A stretch of 64,000 bases of DNA from Azonexus sp. Its GTDB lineage: Bacteria; Pseudomonadota; Gammaproteobacteria; Burkholderiales; Rhodocyclaceae. The translations under genes and the position numbers were made by a program. The first letter of the stretch is position 1. The number at the start of each line of letters is the position of its first letter. Below the pieces are notes generated by a model. The model was given only the letters and a program-made list of their open reading frames with translations, searched no databases and had not been told where the DNA came from. Positions 3,109-54,816 of the stretch are shown here, piece after piece. The stretch covers positions 62,001-126,000 of the forward strand of contig NZ_JAVBXX010000006.1 of assembly GCF_030824335.1 (NCBI RefSeq), written 5' to 3'.

Positions 3109-5922
3109 ATGACCGAAAATCAAAACCCCGAACAGAAAGCCCGTGATCACATCGATGTGCAATTGCGCGCTGCTGGCTGGGCGGTGCAGAAAAAGATCGA
3201 TTTCTCAACGGGGATCGGCCAGGCGGTGCGCGAATGGCACACCGATGCTGGCCCTGCCGACTACGTGCTGTTCGTGGATCGCAAGGCGGTTGGCATCATT
3301 GAAGCCAAGCGTGAAGAAGAAGGGCAACGCCTGACCGCCCACGAGCCGCAAACCGAAGGTTACGCCGCTGCCAAGCTCAAGTGGGTCAACAACCAGCAGC
3401 CGCTGCCTTTTCTCTACGAAGCCACTGGCATCGTCACCCGCTTCACCGACGCTCGCGACCCCAAGCCGCGTTCGCGCGAAATCTTCAGCTTCCACCGCCC
3501 GGAAACCCTGCGCGACTGGCTAGCCGATGGTGAAAGCCTGCGCGCCCGCCTCGCCGAACTGCCGCCGCTCAACCCGGAACACCAGTCGGCGAAAGAACTC
3601 CGCCTGCGCGATTGCCAGGAAACGGCGATCACCAATCTCGAACAATCCTTCCGCGAAGCCCGGCCGCGTGCGCTGATTCAAATGGCCACCGGCGCCGGCA
3701 AGACCTACACCGCGATCACCAGCATCTACCGCCTGCTCAAGCACGCCGACGCCAAACGGGTGCTCTTTTTGGTCGATACCAAAAACCTCGGCGAGCAGGC
3801 CGAGCAGGAAATGATGGCCTATGTGCCCATCGACGATAACCGCAAATTCACCGAGCTCTACACGGTGCAGCGCCTGAAAAGCAGTTTCGTCGACAAGGGC
3901 GCCGACGTCTGCATCTCGACCATCCAGCGCCTCTACTCGCTGCTGCAAGACAAGGAACTCGACGAAGCCGCCGAAGAAATTAACCCGGCCGAGCTGACCC
4001 AGCCCAAAGCCCCGGCCCCCGTCGCCTACAACGCCAAGATTCCGCCCGAGTTCTTCGACTTCATCTTCATCGACGAATGCCACCGCAGCATCTACAACCT
4101 CTGGCAGCAGGTGCTCGACTACTTCGACGCCAGCCTGATCGGCCTCACCGCGACGCCCGACAACCGCACCTATGGCTTCTTCAAGAAGAACGTCGTCAGC
4201 GACTACAGCCATGAAAAAGCCGTCGCCGACGGCGTCAATGTCGGCAACGAGATCTACCTGATCGATACCCGCATCACCCAGCAAGGCGCCGTCATCGCCG
4301 CCGAGCAGCAGGTCGAAAAGCGCGAGCGCCTGACCCGCAAGAAGCGTTGGGAACAGCAGGACGAAGACGCCGCCTACACCGCCACCCAGCTCGACCGCGA
4401 CATCGTCAACCCGGACCAGATCCGCACCGTCATCCGCGCCTTCCGCGACAACCTGCCGGCCATCTTCCCCGGCCGCGCCGAAGTGCCCAAGACCCTGATC
4501 TTCGCCAAGACCGACAGCCACGCCGACGACATCATCCAGACCGTGCGCGAGGAATTCGGCGAAGGCAACGCCTTCTGCAAGAAAGTCACCTACCGCGCCG
4601 CGCAGGACAAAAAGCTGGCCGACGGCAGCGTGCAGCAGGGCGAAGACCCCAAATCCATCCTCGCCCAGTTCCGCAACGAATACCATCCGCGCATCGCCGT
4701 CACCGTCGACATGATCGCCACCGGCACCGACGTCAAACCGCTCGAATGCCTGCTCTTCATGCGCGACGTCAAAAGCCGCAACTACTTCGAGCAGATGAAA
4801 GGCCGCGGCACCCGCACGCTGGACATGGACGACCTCAAGAAGGTCACGCCCAGCGCTAAAAGCGCCAAGACCCACTACGTCATTGTCGACGCCATCGGCG
4901 TCACCAAATCGCTGAAGACCGCCAGCCAGCCGCTCATCACCAAGCCCGGCGTGCCGCTCAAGGATTTGGCGATGGGCATCCTGATGGGCGCCACCGATAC
5001 CGACAGCGTATCCTCGCTGGCCGGCCGTCTCGCCCGCCTCAACAAGCAGCTCGACGCCGACGACCAGCGCCGCCTGCGCGACGCGGCCGGCGGCGTCGAA
5101 CTCAGCCATCTGGTCAGCAAACTGTTCAACGCCATCGACGGCGACCTCATCGAAGCCCGCGCCCTCGACCTCGCCGGCTTGCCCATCGGCAACGACCCCG
5201 GCGACACGCTGCGCGATCAGGCCCAGCAACAACTCGTCGGCGAAGCGGCGGCGTTGATGAACGGCGAATTCATCGAGCTGATCGACACCATCCGCCGCGA
5301 AAAAGAACAGACCATCGACCACGACAACCTGGATGGCGTCACCTACGCCGGCTGGAACAAGGACAGTGCCGCCAATGCCGAAGCATTGACCCACGAGTTC
5401 GCCGACTGGCTGGCGACAAATCGCGACGAAATCGAGGCGTTGACCATCTTCTTCGCCCAACCCTGGCGCCGGCGCGAAGTGACGCTCAAGCTCGTGCGCC
5501 AGGTGCTCGACAAACTCAAAGCCGACAAACCCAAACTCGCCCCGCTGCGCATCTGGCAAGCCTACGGCCAGTTGGACAGCTACAATGGCGCCCCGCCGGA
5601 ACAGGAACTGACGGCGCTGGTCGCCCTGATCCGCCGCGTCTGCGGCCTGGACGCCCAGATCACCCCGTTCGCCGACACCGTGCGCAAGAACTTCCAGACC
5701 TGGATCATGCAGCACCACGCCGGCGGCGCCGACAAATTCAACGAAGAACAAATGAACTGGCTACGCATGCTCCGCGACCACATTGCCCACTCCTGCCACG
5801 TCGACCGTAACGATCTTGAGCTTCCTCCCTTTGGTCAGGGTGGGCTGGGGAAGATGTGGCAACTGTTCGGCGAGGGCTTGGACCCTTTGCTGGATGAGCT
5901 GAATGAGGCGTTGGTGGCGTGA
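3109..5922 (+). CDS. hsdR: Type I restriction enzyme, R subunit (HsdR)
   Basis: Motor and nuclease subunit of a type I restriction-modification complex, which translocates DNA and cuts unmodified targets. The 937-residue protein carries a PD-(D/E)xK-like nuclease motif near the N-terminus (Asp51 and Glu65-Ala-Lys67), Walker A MATGAGKT at about 192-199, a DECH box at 322-325, LTATP, and a helicase C-terminal half. The C-terminal part resembles the EcoEI R family. The ATG at 3109 was preferred to a TTG at 3103; neither has a strong ribosome site. It overlaps hsdS by 1 nt (TGATG), so the two are translationally coupled. It is divergent from the two-component genes. Confidence 0.95.
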   Translation: MTENQNPEQKARDHIDVQLRAAGWAVQKKIDFSTGIGQAVREWHTDAGPADYVLFVDRKAVGIIEAKREEEGQRLTAHEPQTEGYAAAKLKWVNNQQPLPFLYEATGIVTRFTDARDPKPRSREIFSFHRPETLRDWLADGESLRARLAELPPLNPEHQSAKELRLRDCQETAITNLEQSFREARPRALIQMATGAGKTYTAITSIYRLLKHADAKRVLFLVDTKNLGEQAEQEMMAYVPIDDNRKFTELYTVQRLKSSFVDKGADVCISTIQRLYSLLQDKELDEAAEEINPAELTQPKAPAPVAYNAKIPPEFFDFIFIDECHRSIYNLWQQVLDYFDASLIGLTATPDNRTYGFFKKNVVSDYSHEKAVADGVNVGNEIYLIDTRITQQGAVIAAEQQVEKRERLTRKKRWEQQDEDAAYTATQLDRDIVNPDQIRTVIRAFRDNLPAIFPGRAEVPKTLIFAKTDSHADDIIQTVREEFGEGNAFCKKVTYRAAQDKKLADGSVQQGEDPKSILAQFRNEYHPRIAVTVDMIATGTDVKPLECLLFMRDVKSRNYFEQMKGRGTRTLDMDDLKKVTPSAKSAKTHYVIVDAIGVTKSLKTASQPLITKPGVPLKDLAMGILMGATDTDSVSSLAGRLARLNKQLDADDQRRLRDAAGGVELSHLVSKLFNAIDGDLIEARALDLAGLPIGNDPGDTLRDQAQQQLVGEAAALMNGEFIELIDTIRREKEQTIDHDNLDGVTYAGWNKDSAANAEALTHEFADWLATNRDEIEALTIFFAQPWRRREVTLKLVRQVLDKLKADKPKLAPLRIWQAYGQLDSYNGAPPEQELTALVALIRRVCGLDAQITPFADTVRKNFQTWIMQHHAGGADKFNEEQMNWLRMLRDHIAHSCHVDRNDLELPPFGQGGLGKMWQLFGEGLDPLLDELNEALVA

Positions 5923-24140: not shown

Positions 24141-24236
24141 GGAAGAGATCGTTCCCCGGTGGGGCGGCCGGTCTTCAAAACCGGCAGGGCCTGTCAAACA
24201 GGCTTGGGTAGGTTCGACTCCTGCTCTCTTCCGCCA
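24141..24236 (+). tRNA. selC: tRNA-Sec (anticodon TCA)
   Basis: 96-nt tRNA with an 8-bp acceptor stem (GGAAGAGA with TCTCTTCC), a long variable arm, anticodon loop CTTCAAA (TCA, reading UGA), a GGTTCGACTCC T arm, a G discriminator and encoded CCA. All are specific features of bacterial selenocysteine tRNA. It directly follows selB. Confidence 0.97.
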
Positions 24237-50031: not shown

Positions 50032-50523
50032 ATGACCCAGCCCGTTCCCGATACCCGTTCCCTGCGCAACGCGCTCGGCCGCTTTGCCACCGGTATCGCC
50101 ATCGTTACGGCCATCGACCCGGATGGACATCCAATCGGTCTGACGGTCAATTCCTTTTCCGCCGTTTCCTTGCAGCCGGCGCTGGTGCTGTGGTGCCTGG
50201 ATAACGGTTCGCACAATCTGGAAGCCTTCCGCAAGGCCAGCCACCACGCCATCAATATCCTGTCGGCTGGTCAGCAGGATCTGTCCAACCGTTTCGCCAC
50301 CTGGCCTGCCGACCGCTTCGCCGGCTTGCCCTGGCAAGCCGGTGCCGGTGGTGCCCCTGTTTTTCCGGACTGCTGTGCCACCTTCGAAGTCGCCAACGAA
50401 ACCGCCCACGAAGGCGGCGATCATCTGATCTTTGTCGGACGCGTCGAACGTTTCACGGAATCGCCTGCATTGGCACCTTTGCTGTTCCACGCCGGGCAAT
50501 ACCGCAAACTTGCCGATAGCTGA
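50032..50523 (+). CDS. Flavin reductase-like (FMN-binding) protein
   Basis: 163-residue flavin reductase-domain protein. LRNALGRFATGIAIVTAIDPDGHPIGLTVNSFSAVSLQPALVLW is the signature of the family that supplies reduced flavin to monooxygenases or binds FMN itself. No partner monooxygenase lies nearby. The ATG at 50032 begins right at the domain. It is followed by the tRNA-Gly promoter, with a 61-nt gap to the tRNA. Confidence 0.9.
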   Translation: MTQPVPDTRSLRNALGRFATGIAIVTAIDPDGHPIGLTVNSFSAVSLQPALVLWCLDNGSHNLEAFRKASHHAINILSAGQQDLSNRFATWPADRFAGLPWQAGAGGAPVFPDCCATFEVANETAHEGGDHLIFVGRVERFTESPALAPLLFHAGQYRKLADS

Positions 50524-50584: not shown

Positions 50585-50658
50585 GCGGGCGTCGTATAAT
50601 GGTAATACCCTAGCTTCCCAAGCTAGAGCCGTGGGTTCGATTCCCATCGCCCGCTCCA
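50585..50658 (+). tRNA. tRNA-Gly (anticodon CCC)
   Basis: 74-nt cloverleaf: acceptor GCGGGCG with CGCCCGC, anticodon loop TTCCCAA, T arm GTGGGTTCGATTCCCAT, discriminator T and encoded CCA. The last 23 nt are repeated with one mismatch at 52357-52379, the hallmark of a tRNA used as an integration site. Confidence 0.97.
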
Positions 50659-50692
50659 TATAGAATTCTCGTAGGCCGTTGATCTGCAAAAG

Positions 50693-50723
50693 AAAAAGCC
50701 AACCAAAAGCGGTTGGCTTTTTT
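50693..50723. terminator. Bidirectional terminator after tRNA-Gly
   Basis: AAAAAGCCAACC and GGTTGGCTTTTTT around AAAAGC. It can end tRNA-Gly transcription and, on the other strand, that of the PIN-like gene. A relative with the same stem lies at 52402-52428. Confidence 0.85.
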
Positions 50724-50816
50724 GTTGTCTGGTAGATTTCTGGTTAGAAGCTATCGTTCGGTTCAAGAATGGTATGCACAATTGTGCGGGCTCTGAGAGC
50801 TGGCATGGTCTTGCTT

Positions 50817-52067
50817 CTAACAATTTGGTTTTGAGAGAAGGGCCTTTAATGCCGCAAGTCGTGTTCTGCCAATATCTTTGTGGTCACCATCACTGACTAA
50901 CTCCCAAGCGCTCAAGTAGTTATTCTTATCCGACTTAATCGAGATCGCCTTTGAAACACTTGATATCTCAGCAGAGATCAAAGCTAGCTGATTCCGCAAG
51001 TCGGTAGCCTTTTCAATTACCAGCGCCATGTCTTTTGAGTCTTCCTCAAAAACCCCCATCTGAATTACATTATCGACGCCCTTTAATTCAGCTTCAATAG
51101 CTAATTTTTTCTCAAGTAGTCTGTTATATCCAGAAACAAGCTGTTCACGAGCAGTGCCGGAAACAAGATAATCATCTTTATTTAACAAAGCATCAAAGAT
51201 AGCCCTTCGACGAACATCCCTAACTTCATTGAGAGCTGCAGTAGAAATGCTTTTCTTGATGAATTTATTGGAGTATTCCATAAATTGATCTGTTTTGTAG
51301 ATATAGAAATCTACTGATGCTTCCTTTTGCATTTCACTGATCAGTTCAGGTCTCGGTCCAATAGTCTTGCCATTTATTCTCAACCACCAATCTTCTTTGA
51401 CATCGTCGGTAACCAAGATTAATGGCGATTTTGTTTGTTTTCCATAATCAATCATTTGCAACCAAATAATTAAATCCCCGAACTTTCCGTCATCTTTTTT
51501 GGTTTGTGCGTCTTTGTAACCAGGTGGTTTTAATTTTGAATATCGTATATCACCATCCTTGTATATCTTGGCTAGCCGCTCATCATCGTAAGGGGCGCCA
51601 ACTCGACCATCGAATAGCTCCGTTATTGTATTTAGAATTGAGTCTTCATCAGTTTGAGGGTGTTTAAGCCGATGTTCATCTAAGTTTTTCAAAGCAGAAT
51701 CAAATCCTTTTTCGAGTCGACTTGCAAGGGAGTCGATCCGAATGATTGGATGCCGCTTGAAATCAGCAAATTTTTTTTCTAAATCAGACTTGTTGTTTTT
51801 TAACAATGACTCAAGTTTTTCATACGCATCCAGTTGTTCAAATATAACCGGAAGTCTGTTTTTGTGAAATTCGAGCGCTGCCTGATGAGGCAGCCATAGC
51901 CGCGATTTAAACTCTTTGAGAATCGAAATTAATCGATCTCGAGTATCGATAGAATATCGATAGAGGTTAAGAAGAACATTTGCGTCTAACGCAATTGTGC
52001 CGGTTTTCCAAATCTCATCGAATTGCTGGTCTGATGGACGATAGTAGCCATTAAATAAGTTTCGCAT
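50817..52067 (-). CDS. PIN-like domain protein, island cargo
   Basis: 416-residue protein. The N-terminal region IALDANVLLNLYRYS, LWLPHQAALEFHKNR, and later DDGKFGDLIIWLQM and LILVTDDVKEDWW give the spaced acidic residues of PIN-like nucleases (the PF18476 'PIN-like' group). The rest is helical and charged. Base composition is clearly more A/T-rich than the neighbours, with many AAA/AAT codons, which indicates transfer. It is the only gene of the tRNA-Gly element. RNA cleavage, perhaps in phage defence, is an inference from the fold. Confidence 0.8.
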   Translation of the reverse strand: MRNLFNGYYRPSDQQFDEIWKTGTIALDANVLLNLYRYSIDTRDRLISILKEFKSRLWLPHQAALEFHKNRLPVIFEQLDAYEKLESLLKNNKSDLEKKFADFKRHPIIRIDSLASRLEKGFDSALKNLDEHRLKHPQTDEDSILNTITELFDGRVGAPYDDERLAKIYKDGDIRYSKLKPPGYKDAQTKKDDGKFGDLIIWLQMIDYGKQTKSPLILVTDDVKEDWWLRINGKTIGPRPELISEMQKEASVDFYIYKTDQFMEYSNKFIKKSISTAALNEVRDVRRRAIFDALLNKDDYLVSGTAREQLVSGYNRLLEKKLAIEAELKGVDNVIQMGVFEEDSKDMALVIEKATDLRNQLALISAEISSVSKAISIKSDKNNYLSAWELVSDGDHKDIGRTRLAALKALLSKPNC

Positions 52068-52356
52068 AATGAAGTATTTTATTCACCCATCCACGCAATA
52101 CGTGGGCGGTTCAGTTATTAACGTGTGCTGAAGACTACTCTCTCACGAATGCCGTTGGCAATATTTTTAGGGGCTGGGTGACGCACTTAAGCGTGTCTGG
52201 TCACAGTGAAATCTAGTTTGGTAGTGCCGAGTCAAATGTCGATCGCTCGGATGCCCCCAACTGTGCTTCAGAGTTCTTCTGCAGTGCGTTGATTATTAAT
52301 AATTTGCATTGAATACGGAGATGCTAAGTAGTCGGTTGTAACGTCTGTTCGACGTT

Positions 52357-52379
52357 TTCGATTCCCTTCGCCCGCTCCA
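52357..52379 (+). repeat. attR-like partial copy of tRNA-Gly
   Basis: 23 nt matching the 3' end of tRNA-Gly(CCC), including CGCCCGCTCCA, with one mismatch. It marks the far edge of the island; bases before it do not form a tRNA. Confidence 0.85.
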
Positions 52380-52401
52380 AAATACAGAAAGTCGAAAGCA
52401 C

Positions 52402-52428
52402 AAGCCAACCCCGCAGGTTGGCTTTTTT
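52402..52428 (+). terminator. Displaced tRNA-Gly terminator
   Basis: AAGCCAACC, loop CCGCA, GGTTGGCTTTTTT. The same 9-bp stem as the terminator at 50693, suggesting that one of the two came with the island. Confidence 0.8.
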
Positions 52429-52506
52429 GTTGCCCAGTCCTTTGTCATGAAGTTTTCATGGAATTTGCTTCTAATGCACCCAGTTCATTCCATGAGTTTC
52501 ATTGTC

Positions 52507-52827
52507 ATGTACCGATATCTATTTTTTGTTCTGCTGGCATTCAATGCGGCGCCGACTTTGGCTGTCGAGTACGGATCGACTACGCTGCAGTACGCCTCTT
52601 CGCCATATGCCAGCGTGCAACGGTATTCTCAACACCTGTGCGCGAGGACGACGGCGCGCGCTTTACCGGCGTCGACCGGGTCGGGTTATGTGCATATCGC
52701 CTGTGATTCGGACGGGGTGAGGACCGGTGACGTTTTTGCCTTTTATCGCGAGGGCAGGCTGGAGATCAACTACCGTTTGGCGAGCAACGATGCTGGAGCA
52801 AGTCGTTTCTTTGCCGATGCGCGATAG
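52507..52827 (+). CDS. Small secreted protein of unknown function
   Basis: 106 residues from the chosen ATG. A signal peptide MYRYLFFVLLAFNAAPTLA is followed by a mature part of about 87 residues with two cysteines (HLCART, HIACDS). In-frame ATGs at 52447 and 52492 would lengthen the N-terminus but give a poor signal sequence; none has a good ribosome site. It lies just outside the tRNA-Gly element, after its terminator, and is convergent with the OprB gene (3-nt gap). No family recognised. Confidence 0.55.
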   Translation: MYRYLFFVLLAFNAAPTLAVEYGSTTLQYASSPYASVQRYSQHLCARTTARALPASTGSGYVHIACDSDGVRTGDVFAFYREGRLEINYRLASNDAGASRFFADAR

Positions 52828-52830
52828 GTT

Positions 52831-54174
52831 TCAGAGCAGGATTTCGAAGCGGATACCTGCGGCACGCGCTTTGCGGGCGCCGGCATCGCCACCTGAATGA
52901 TGAATCCATTGCAGGTCTGGTTGGATGGCCAGCCAGTGGTTGATTGAAATGCGGTAGGTCAGTTCTGCGGCGTTTTCGGCGTGCGCCATGTTCAGACCGT
53001 CATTCCCTTGCCGGCTGCTGCGGTATTTTTTCGCTAGCCCGGCAGTAGTCCAGGCCAGGCCGAAGGTGTCATCGGGTCTCGTTGCTAGAAGCCCGCGTAC
53101 GGCAATGCCGAGGTTCAGTTGTGCCTTGATGGGGGTTGAGTTGCCATCGGTGAAGGCGTAACGAAGCAAGCCGTTGACCTGGCGTGCCGGATTGCCTTGC
53201 AGGTTCCACAGTGAGTGTTCGGCTAGCAGGTAGGCGCCCCACGAGTTTCTCTTTTTCGGGTTGCCCAAGCGGTCGACCGCAAGTTGGTCATCAACCTTGT
53301 TGCTGTAACGCCATGCACCGATGGCATATTTGGCAACGCCTTCATGTTTTTCGTGCAATTTCAATTCCGGCGGCTGCAGGATATCGCCCGGGTCGCTGGG
53401 TTCGAAAACATGGCCTTGTTCGATGGGCATCCAGCCAAATTCAGCAATCGTGAAGTTCCCATCGTGCTTGCCGAATTTGATGTGCGTGCCCTTGGGTTTG
53501 GCCGGATCGCCGGGTATGCCGTCAAGCAGTGCGAGCATTCCGTAGCGGGTACGGTCGCTGGCCTGCCATTTGACGCGCATGCCGGCGGCCGAGTTGTTGA
53601 AGATCGATGGGCCTCTGGTCAGGGCGAGGTCGGCTGATACGCCGTAAGCGGGATTGATGAATACGCTGGCAGAGTCGAGGACGGAGAATTCGGAGTCGAC
53701 CGGATAAAGTCCGGCCAGCAAGGACCACTGTTCCGCCATGAAGCTTTGCTGAATCCAGGCATGGAAGAGCCTGCTCGTACCGACCGGCACCTCAATGTTC
53801 GAAACGCCTATCAAACTGCCGATTTCTCGTGCGTTGATGCCTGCGCCCCGGTTGTCGAGCAGGTGGAAATAGGCCGTGCCATCCTCCCAGCCCCAGAGCT
53901 TTTCGAGGTCGGCACGCAGCTTCAGATCGAGGTTGCTCATGCTGCGGGAAGCGCTGCCGAATCCACGGTTCAGGTTGTTGAAGCTGTCGAGCTTGAAGCC
54001 GGCCTCCACGGCGATTCCGCGCTGGTAAAGATTGCTGCGCAGACCGTGCCAGTTGCCGGTGAGCGTGTCGCGCTGATAGTCGGGGATGGGGGCATTGTCT
54101 GTCGCATTTGCTGAGCAGATCGTGCTGCCGACAAGGGCTGCGAAAATGAAATTTTGTAGCCGATTAGCGAACAT
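52831..54174 (-). CDS. OprB-family carbohydrate-selective porin
   Basis: 447-residue outer-membrane protein: signal peptide (about 1-25, ending ANA), then DYQRDTLTGNWHGLRSNLYQRGIAVEAGFKLD, the OprB-family opening, and a long beta-barrel sequence rich in Gly and aromatics ending FEILL. OprB proteins pass sugars across the outer membrane; the substrate here is unknown. It contains one exact GCGGTCGACCGC copy (53269-53280). The LON-domain gene ends 13 nt upstream of the start. Confidence 0.9.
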   Translation of the reverse strand: MFANRLQNFIFAALVGSTICSANATDNAPIPDYQRDTLTGNWHGLRSNLYQRGIAVEAGFKLDSFNNLNRGFGSASRSMSNLDLKLRADLEKLWGWEDGTAYFHLLDNRGAGINAREIGSLIGVSNIEVPVGTSRLFHAWIQQSFMAEQWSLLAGLYPVDSEFSVLDSASVFINPAYGVSADLALTRGPSIFNNSAAGMRVKWQASDRTRYGMLALLDGIPGDPAKPKGTHIKFGKHDGNFTIAEFGWMPIEQGHVFEPSDPGDILQPPELKLHEKHEGVAKYAIGAWRYSNKVDDQLAVDRLGNPKKRNSWGAYLLAEHSLWNLQGNPARQVNGLLRYAFTDGNSTPIKAQLNLGIAVRGLLATRPDDTFGLAWTTAGLAKKYRSSRQGNDGLNMAHAENAAELTYRISINHWLAIQPDLQWIHHSGGDAGARKARAAGIRFEILL

Positions 54175-54186
54175 TTCCCACCAAGT

Positions 54187-54816
54187 TCAGCCGAGCAGTT
54201 TGCGCTGATCCAGGAATTTTTCCAGGATTTCCAGCCGGGCCAGCGGGTCGTCGAGTTCCAGCAGTTTCTGTTTGGCCAGGTTCTGTACCGGTAGCACTTC
54301 GATGATGCGGTAGCCGACCCAGGCAGCATCGTCGTAGCGGTGCGGTTCGGGGATGCGTTCCGGGCCGAGGTCGCTGATGATGCGTTGCAGCAGCGGCAAC
54401 AGGCGTTCGCGATTTTGTGGCAACGGGGCTTCTGGTTCGATCAGCAACTCGACGGTGGCTTCGAGTAGTTTGCTGGCGCCGACCTCATGGTCGAGAATGC
54501 GAAAGCGCCGGCCGCCGATGGCGTTGATCATCAGGATGCCGAGTTGCTCCATGTCCCAGTTGCCGATTGTTGCCAGCGTGCCGACCAGATGCGGCAGCGC
54601 GGCCTCGCCGATTTCGTTGCCGCTGTCGATCAAGCAGATACCGAAGGGCGAACCGTTTTTCAGGCAGGTGGCGGCCATGTCCAGATAGCGTTGCTCGAAA
54701 ATTTTCAGCGGCTGGACGCCTCCGGGAAAGAGCACGGTATTGAGTGGAAACAGTGGGATACGTAGCGTTTCTACACTGCCGCCATCTGGTGAGCGAATGA
54801 AATCGAACCAGCCCAT
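54187..54816 (-). CDS. LON N-terminal (substrate-binding) domain protein
   Basis: 209-residue protein consisting only of the LON N-terminal domain (LRIPLFPLNTVLFPGGVQPLKIFEQRYLDM), without the ATPase or protease parts of Lon. Such stand-alone proteins are widespread in Proteobacteria and their function is not established. It starts 1 nt after the ubiX stop, within a run of close or overlapping minus-strand genes from rapZ. Confidence 0.92.
   Translation of the reverse strand: MGWFDFIRSPDGGSVETLRIPLFPLNTVLFPGGVQPLKIFEQRYLDMAATCLKNGSPFGICLIDSGNEIGEAALPHLVGTLATIGNWDMEQLGILMINAIGGRRFRILDHEVGASKLLEATVELLIEPEAPLPQNRERLLPLLQRIISDLGPERIPEPHRYDDAAWVGYRIIEVLPVQNLAKQKLLELDDPLARLEILEKFLDQRKLLG

Follow-up and report, generated by a model that had tools for sequence, protein, structure and literature searches.

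A single PIN_8 gene in a small islet without an integrase at tRNA-Gly(CCC) of Azonexus: a candidate stand-alone phage defence cargo

Several described systems are close to the locus reported here. Cis-mobilizable elements (CIMEs) are defined in the available text of PMC5704250. On the defence side, the available text of the DefensePredictor study (2026; PMC13092281) presents DS-3 as a defence system made of one protein, whose PIN domain is split and which lacks a cognate antitoxin, and according to the available text of a survey of E. coli, defence genes are often located in islands of unclear mobility (PMC10121019). The locus lies in a stretch of 64 kb of DNA from Azonexus sp., analysed as a whole and referred to as the window, and consists of an islet inserted next to a tRNA-Gly(CCC) gene (Table 1). 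The best explanation, to which a probability of about 0.6 is assigned, is that of a CIME-like islet devoid of an integrase, whose cargo would be a stand-alone, self-inhibited PIN nuclease acting in phage defence. The interpretation proposed in a preliminary description, based on the sequence of the window, is largely supported.

Table 1. Features of the tRNA-Gly(CCC) islet and of its flanks; positions are those of the window.
Feature	Position	Strand	Basis or remark
Left flank: flavin reductase-like gene	50032..50523	+	tRNA neighbour in most of the relatives
tRNA-Gly(CCC), insertion target, intact	50585..50658	+	tRNA call; left repeat formed by the last 23 nt (50636-50658)
Proximal terminator hairpin and T-tract	50698..50723	+	by eye; of a kind found at many sites of the same genus
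Left-arm motif TCTGGTAGATTTCTGGTTAGA	50728..50748	+	2 mismatches to the search pattern; two TCTGGT copies, 11 bp apart
PIN_8 (PF18476) protein gene, 416 aa, sole cargo between the repeats	50817..52067	-	ORF list and profile
Right-end sequence adjoining the distal core (...GACGTT/TTCGATT)	52335..52356	not assigned	end comparison
Distal repeat (attR-like): tRNA 3' end, 23 nt, 1 mismatch	52357..52379	+	repeat search
Second terminator hairpin	52402..52424	+	repeats and terminator scan
Right flank: conserved gene past the variable interval, presumably Lon substrate-binding-like	54187..54816	-	ORF list and comparison of relatives

The direct repeats of the tRNA 3' end, on which the preliminary description was centred, are identical at 22 of 23 positions and 1,721 bp apart, and the boundary of the repeat coincides exactly with the 3' end of the tRNA. 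When the 23-mer was searched in the genome of origin (3.77 Mb, 91.8% complete), allowing up to 3 mismatches, three places were found, corresponding to the two islet copies and, on contig C5, to a tRNA-Gly(TCC); the reversed pattern, used as a control, gave 0 matches. The duplicated terminators were also recovered, as two hairpins both containing GGTTGGCTTTTTTGTTG (repeats D3/D4); the terminator scan reports the distal one only, and the proximal one was recognised by eye. A match to the Rfam family ctRNA_p42d (50686-50722) was discarded: it falls below its cut-off and sits on the terminator region. The sharp A/T shift is evident from the GC content, which moves from 0.61 to 0.37-0.43 inside the islet and to 0.57 beyond it, the general level being about 0.60.

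Only one ORF of at least 60 aa is entirely contained between the repeats, so that the single gene is confirmed for that interval, at this size limit. The next conserved gene is separated from the distal repeat by two more genes (52447-52827 and 52831-54174), neither of them seen at the tRNA-Gly site of the 40 relatives compared, and the description as a one-gene island is therefore valid between the repeats only. These two genes code for 126 and 447 aa, the latter product being porin-like by eye, and sizeable DNA matches to their region (52447-54174) were found in four relatives only, elsewhere in the genome, at 66-70% identity. A tRNA-SeC gene is also present in the window, at 24141-24236.

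The tRNA-Gly regions of 40 genomes of the same genus, mostly about 20 kb each, were compared with the window; the genome collection includes one genome per species, and all site comparisons run between species. The presence of the gene at the same place in all relatives had been indicated beforehand as an argument against an island; tblastn at 1e-5 detected the PIN gene in 0 of the 40 regions. Apparently empty and differently filled sites, which the preliminary description suggested looking for, both exist in the genus: about 85 bp separate the tRNA from the next conserved gene in G066, and other relatives have long inserts. Within the species an empty site is not demonstrable, owing to the composition of the collection, and the right flank of the window was found beside tRNA-Gly in 0 of 76 genomes, which counts against an island. 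As to the content of the inserts, a PIN-domain gene and a HTH/peptidase gene are found in G026, an ankyrin protein in G075 and single genes in G083 and G064, and no recombinase-like ORF was recognised by eye in any of these four small islands. Tyrosine-recombinase-like genes were recognised by eye beside the tRNA in G071, G034 and G010.

At 7 of 45 sites an insert splits the tRNA-Gly(CCC) gene itself, at about position 39; the insert contains a reverse-transcriptase-like ORF, recognised by eye, along with another, complete tRNA-Gly(CCC) (L053 2524-5416, from G062; L067, L068, L069, L070, L071 and L074). ARAGORN reports one tRNA-Gly(CCC) in each of the seven loci, the internal one. Rfam analysis of L053, the sole locus scanned, revealed parts of a group II intron at 2760-2909 and 5220-5296, in addition to the internal tRNA. 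A group II intron interrupting a tRNA gene while bringing a replacement tRNA, as these sequences would suggest, looks unusual, and a literature search found nothing on such an arrangement among the titles listed.

The nature of the cargo was evaluated on ten hand-picked proteins from eight sister islands, one of which, in G016, has a variant of the left-arm motif only. By scanning against PADLOC at E<=1e-5, 7 of the 10 proteins were found to match anti-phage models: ThsB in G457 (1.5e-63), a type I REase (REase_I, 2.9e-133) and a GmrSD/HEC-05-like protein in G452, an RmrA-like protein in G026, PDC-S59 in G064, PDC-M66B, together with Pfam DUF3037, in G016, and PDC-M72A in G075, the last being a weak case, located on the ankyrin region. 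DUF3037 is among the domains newly linked to defence in the available text of PMC13092281. No PADLOC match was obtained for the PIN gene of G026 nor for the cargo of G083 and G076. The scan left out G013, G017, G453, G466, G033, G028 and G019; type I restriction genes were recognised by eye in G453 and G466, and two observations count against a site devoted entirely to defence, namely the stress and signalling genes seen by eye in G013 and the absence of low-GC cargo in G017. The defence cargo of the sister islands is the main reason for reading the PIN_8 gene as defence cargo as well, and agrees with the layout of a defence hotspot proposed at the outset.

The 416-aa protein matches PF18476 (PIN_8) over residues 25-242 with an E-value of 1.6e-65 and 221.7 bits (cut-off 26.1), which substantiates the PIN-like motifs previously noticed, and also matches phrog_9788, a family of unknown function, at 2.5e-69. 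PF18476 is presumably linked to DUF4935. The protein comes near no NCBIfam cut-off and a sequence search of the PDB gave no significant match. It matches 0 PADLOC 2.0.0 families at E<=1, and literature searches found, among the titles listed, no defence role for PIN_8, no paper for PF18476 and one for DUF4935, the term PIN_8 returning mostly plant auxin transporters. To this extent the gene is undescribed, as had been suggested; stand-alone defence by a PIN protein, however, has a precedent in DS-3, at least as presented in the available text of its source.

In a 60-sequence alignment, as well as in one of 13 sequences, residues D28, E66, D198 and D226 do not vary, and D222 is conserved at 90% or more; these acidic residues probably represent the PIN active-site set, and would include the catalytic ones. 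The conserved part corresponds to the N-terminal ~287 residues, the remainder being variable, and the C-terminal third matches few relatives. The AlphaFold2 model reached a mean pLDDT of 88.1. With Foldseek alone, no structure of the PDB was matched at E<=0.001; its output was re-aligned, and the resulting PIN fold match, with middling Z, involves the PIN-domain VapC4 of Pyrococcus horikoshii (5h4g; residues 20-273, Z 9.3, rmsd 3.6, 143 aligned) as well as an RNA exosome complex (5k36, chain K; residues 15-283, Z 9.0, rmsd 3.4, 149 aligned). A helical insert separates the two halves of the predicted fold, and the match of residues 297-387 is to antiparallel coiled coils, which are a common arrangement. 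Among viral models the top Foldseek match was a 'PIN like domain' protein, at a non-significant E of 0.012. The PIN fold was thus recovered in the predicted structure, and the protein may be described, according to the model, as a VapC-like PIN fold split by a helical insert and followed by a C-terminal coiled coil.

PIN_8 genes are rare in the genus and widespread outside it. PF18476 is detected above cut-off in 5 of 76 genomes, counting that of the window: G461 scores comparably to the window gene (3.3e-56) and has a C-terminal part which, by eye, is like that of L076 (G430), and the matches in G029 (1.0e-30), G030 and G002 are weaker. The whole protein is matched in 2 of 369 genomes of the class at E<=1e-10 and in 2 of 60 relatives at E<=0.001, its own genome being counted in both cases and the other match among the 60 being weak and partial. 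A scan of public genomes produced at least 594 pattern matches, at least 520 of which are relatives. The best 80 of these come from both bacteria and archaea and are 33-46% identical over the best segment; the closest, among the matches listed, reach 46% identity over segments of about 290-310 residues. No match in 59 plasmid records spans 80% of the query protein, and tblastn with the cargo protein against phage records gave no match. Five PIN_8 genes were also compared, as DNA queries, with 5,426 E. coli genomes: one matched a single genome, the other four none.

The genomic context of the family was analysed by comparing proteins encoded near and far from PIN_8 genes (112 each, from 28 of the 80 loci) with PADLOC at E<=1e-5, after leaving out loci close to a contig end, those with too few usable genes and 11 loci from taxa that were near-duplicates by name. 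Near PIN_8 the most represented families are mad8 (5), HerA (3), PD-T4-6, mad6 and PglW (2 each), whereas no listed family has more than one member among the far proteins (commonest 1/112). In all, 285 families were matched near and 55 far, many of them by overlapping models, and Pfam analysis of the same 28 loci shows that neighbours are mostly ordinary genes, which counts against a defence role; the contrast between near and far proteins is weak support for defence. On larger plasmids, PIN_8 genes have as neighbours, in separate regions, a restriction endonuclease; restriction and SIR2 genes; DGQHR-domain and Abi genes; a pore-forming-effector gene. Three further regions have no clear defence partner, judging by gene names.

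Transfer RNA genes are present in 9 of 60 PIN_8 loci scanned, and in two of the nine the tRNA end is repeated. In both cases PIN_8 is located within a tRNA island bordered by 30-nt tRNA-end repeats, with 1 mismatch in L112 (7749-13354, Paenibacillus plantarum) and 0 in L100 (1504-14347); the other seven loci (L129, L132, L141, L144, L152, L166, L167) have a tRNA and no second copy of its end. Islands at tRNA genes are not the usual setting of PIN_8 genes. In three loci a short PIN_8 gene is directly followed by HerA-like (DUF87), NurA and methyltransferase-like genes (L100 8001-13708, L107 8001-13796, L116 8001-13715), the last name being assigned by eye, and in L109 the arrangement is broken off by the contig end. 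Judging from gene order, these loci are a candidate multi-gene defence operon.

The finding of PIN_8 genes on very small plasmids would also fit a different role for the same island, in which the protein would serve addiction or maintenance in the manner of a toxin, or would be a plasmid or prophage cargo with a non-defence function, such as competition between mobile elements. A 4.2-kb Psychrobacter plasmid combines PIN_8 with rep, mob and one small hypothetical gene only, a 5.2-kb Klebsiella plasmid with Rop, an HTH gene and two hypothetical genes, and a 2.1-kb E. coli plasmid with one hypothetical gene, all three according to gene tables which may be incomplete; PIN_8 genes are present in prophage-like contigs as well. 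In addition, the available text of PMC13092281 names VapC toxins as the best-known source of PIN domains. A role of this kind is nevertheless rather improbable here: no partner ORF of at least 60 aa is located between the repeats, leaving room for a shorter one, and the same slot is filled by defence genes in relatives. Furthermore, with its 416 aa and its insert, the protein does not resemble a VapC toxin.

The ends of the islands were compared as well. After the first terminator, several sites share TCTGGTCGATNTCTGGTCAGA, which contains two copies of TCTGG, 11 bp apart; the window motif reported in Table 1 is common to other islands of the genus. Such repeats are taken to resemble the arm-type sites of integrases, and may function as such. 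The pattern was found in 32 of 76 genomes with up to 3 mismatches, a search that gave 5 matches for the reversed control and includes apparent chance matches or a conserved coding stretch; with up to 2 mismatches, it was found at 18 places in 17 genomes. Of 18 sequences examined, all of them selected for showing the motif, 16 carry it with at most 3 mismatches, and 15 of the 16 have a terminator ahead of it. Variants beyond this limit are present in G016 and G062. The 1,000 bases following the motif have a GC content between 0.40 and 0.56 in 14 of 15 cases, the exception being G017 (0.60). The test was extended to 37 of 45 tRNA-Gly sites, 8 being dropped as no complete tRNA 3' end is nearby: the median downstream GC is 0.507 with the motif (n=11) vs 0.621 without it (n=26; Mann-Whitney p=3.5e-5). 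G452, G457, G466 and G076 entered this test through the motif, so that the share of motif-positive sites (11/37) is inflated; in G076 and G457 the 3' part of the tRNA is present at the site and its 5' end is not there.

G019 has this left end elsewhere in its genome, away from tRNA-Gly and after a degenerate tRNA end, an indication that the element takes its spacer, terminator and motif along. A contrary observation is that the left-end sequence also follows the distal repeats in G028 and G033; the order of these sequences could reflect tandem elements, or a left end which is partly native flank.

The right ends are less uniform. G075 and G026, whose cargo is different, have about 140 bp in common ahead of the distal repeat, and an exact 23-mer from this region occurs only in these 2 of 76 genomes; the right end of the window gave no alignment with the 140 bp, a result that counts against the island reading. 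ACGTG immediately precedes the core in four of six other distal ends (G452, G028, G075, G026) and not in G453 and G033, the window having GACGTT, i.e. ACGTT, at this position. The T of its distal core is also found in the tRNA-Gly of G064 and G017, which may be a hint of the donor lineage.

The absence of an integrase, noticed in the preliminary description, was confirmed by searching for PF00589 (Phage_integrase): the four matches of the genome are all located outside the 64-kb window. As regards the search for a donor integrase that had been recommended, none of the four lies near the islet: the one on C22 is XerD-like by eye, two others are on C28 (a 315-aa frame) and C17 (a fragment), and the fourth is a fragment on C23, integron-integrase-like by eye and below the PF00589 cut-off (G000 C23 64215-64349; L182 6177-6686). 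In 15 relatives no PF00589 match lies within 80 kb of the left-arm site on the same contig, among the matches listed, which are known to be complete for G452, G466 and G013. In G033 and G076 the 5' half of the broken tRNA lies on another contig, together with a PF00589 match (C121:290165 and C154:907-1338), and these two sites may therefore belong to composites provided with an integrase.

The lack of an integrase would also fit an origin of the repeats by homologous recombination, or by local duplication of the tRNA and terminator, with no site-specific recombinase involved, an explanation compatible with a defence role of the cargo. The proximal spacer and terminator indeed look native for the genus, and the distal spacer differs from them. 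Such an origin is unlikely, given that the repeat stops exactly at the tRNA 3' end, that islands at the same tRNA have adjacent tyrosine-recombinase-like genes (by eye), with PF00589 in G033, that the left end is found away from tRNA-Gly in G019, and that ACGTG is repeatedly found before the core of other distal ends, with ACGTT in the window. Finally, it is very improbable that the PIN_8 gene is a functionless leftover, as a single gene with no partner, rare in the genus, might be, since the 416-aa frame and the acidic set are intact.

The preferred explanation, that of an integrase-less islet with a PIN nuclease for defence, may be formulated as follows. A small island without an integrase would have been inserted at the 3' end of tRNA-Gly(CCC), as one of a genus-wide set with a common left end and exchangeable cargo, in good part anti-phage, and would have moved in a site-specific manner by means of an integrase supplied from elsewhere. 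The split PIN domain would be the effector, probably with RNase activity, which the helical insert and the variable C-terminal coiled coil may hold off, or use to sense infection. Upon phage infection, tRNA or mRNA would be cut and phage growth stopped. Nuclease activity, self-inhibition, trigger, mobility and phage defence are what we infer for the system. A broader proposal, advanced here as no better than tentative, is that the tRNA-Gly(CCC) site hosts non-autonomous defence cassettes with a constant left end and swappable cargo, moved in trans, possibly as integron cassettes depend on an integrase located elsewhere, and that PIN_8 is a new family of stand-alone ribonucleases for defence. 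The ends of small integrase-less defence islands can be compared across many species of one genus at one site, and what moves such islands becomes directly testable.

In comparison with known systems, the islet has the far-side repeat of the tRNA 3' end, the patchy presence and the foreign composition of tRNA-associated genomic islands, but no integrase of its own. It resembles CIMEs in keeping att-like repeats, with a putative att role, on both sides, in having no integrase or transfer genes and in being located at a tRNA that is occupied by tandem elements in relatives; it differs in having just 1.7 kb between the repeats, and its origin from an ICE or IME, like its mobilisation in cis, is conjectural. 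The multi-gene PIN_8/HerA-like/NurA/methyltransferase-like operon shares the PIN_8 domain and, in L100, the location in a tRNA island, whereas the window gene has no such partners. With VapC of VapBC the protein shares the PIN fold of the catalytic part of its model, but it is longer and split, and no antitoxin-like ORF of at least 60 aa is found between the repeats. Within the PIN_8 family (PF18476), to which residues 25-242 bind it strongly, it is set apart by its C-terminal third. It is likened to DS-3 by description only, on the basis of the available text: both are one protein with a split PIN domain, which in the window gene is predicted by the model.
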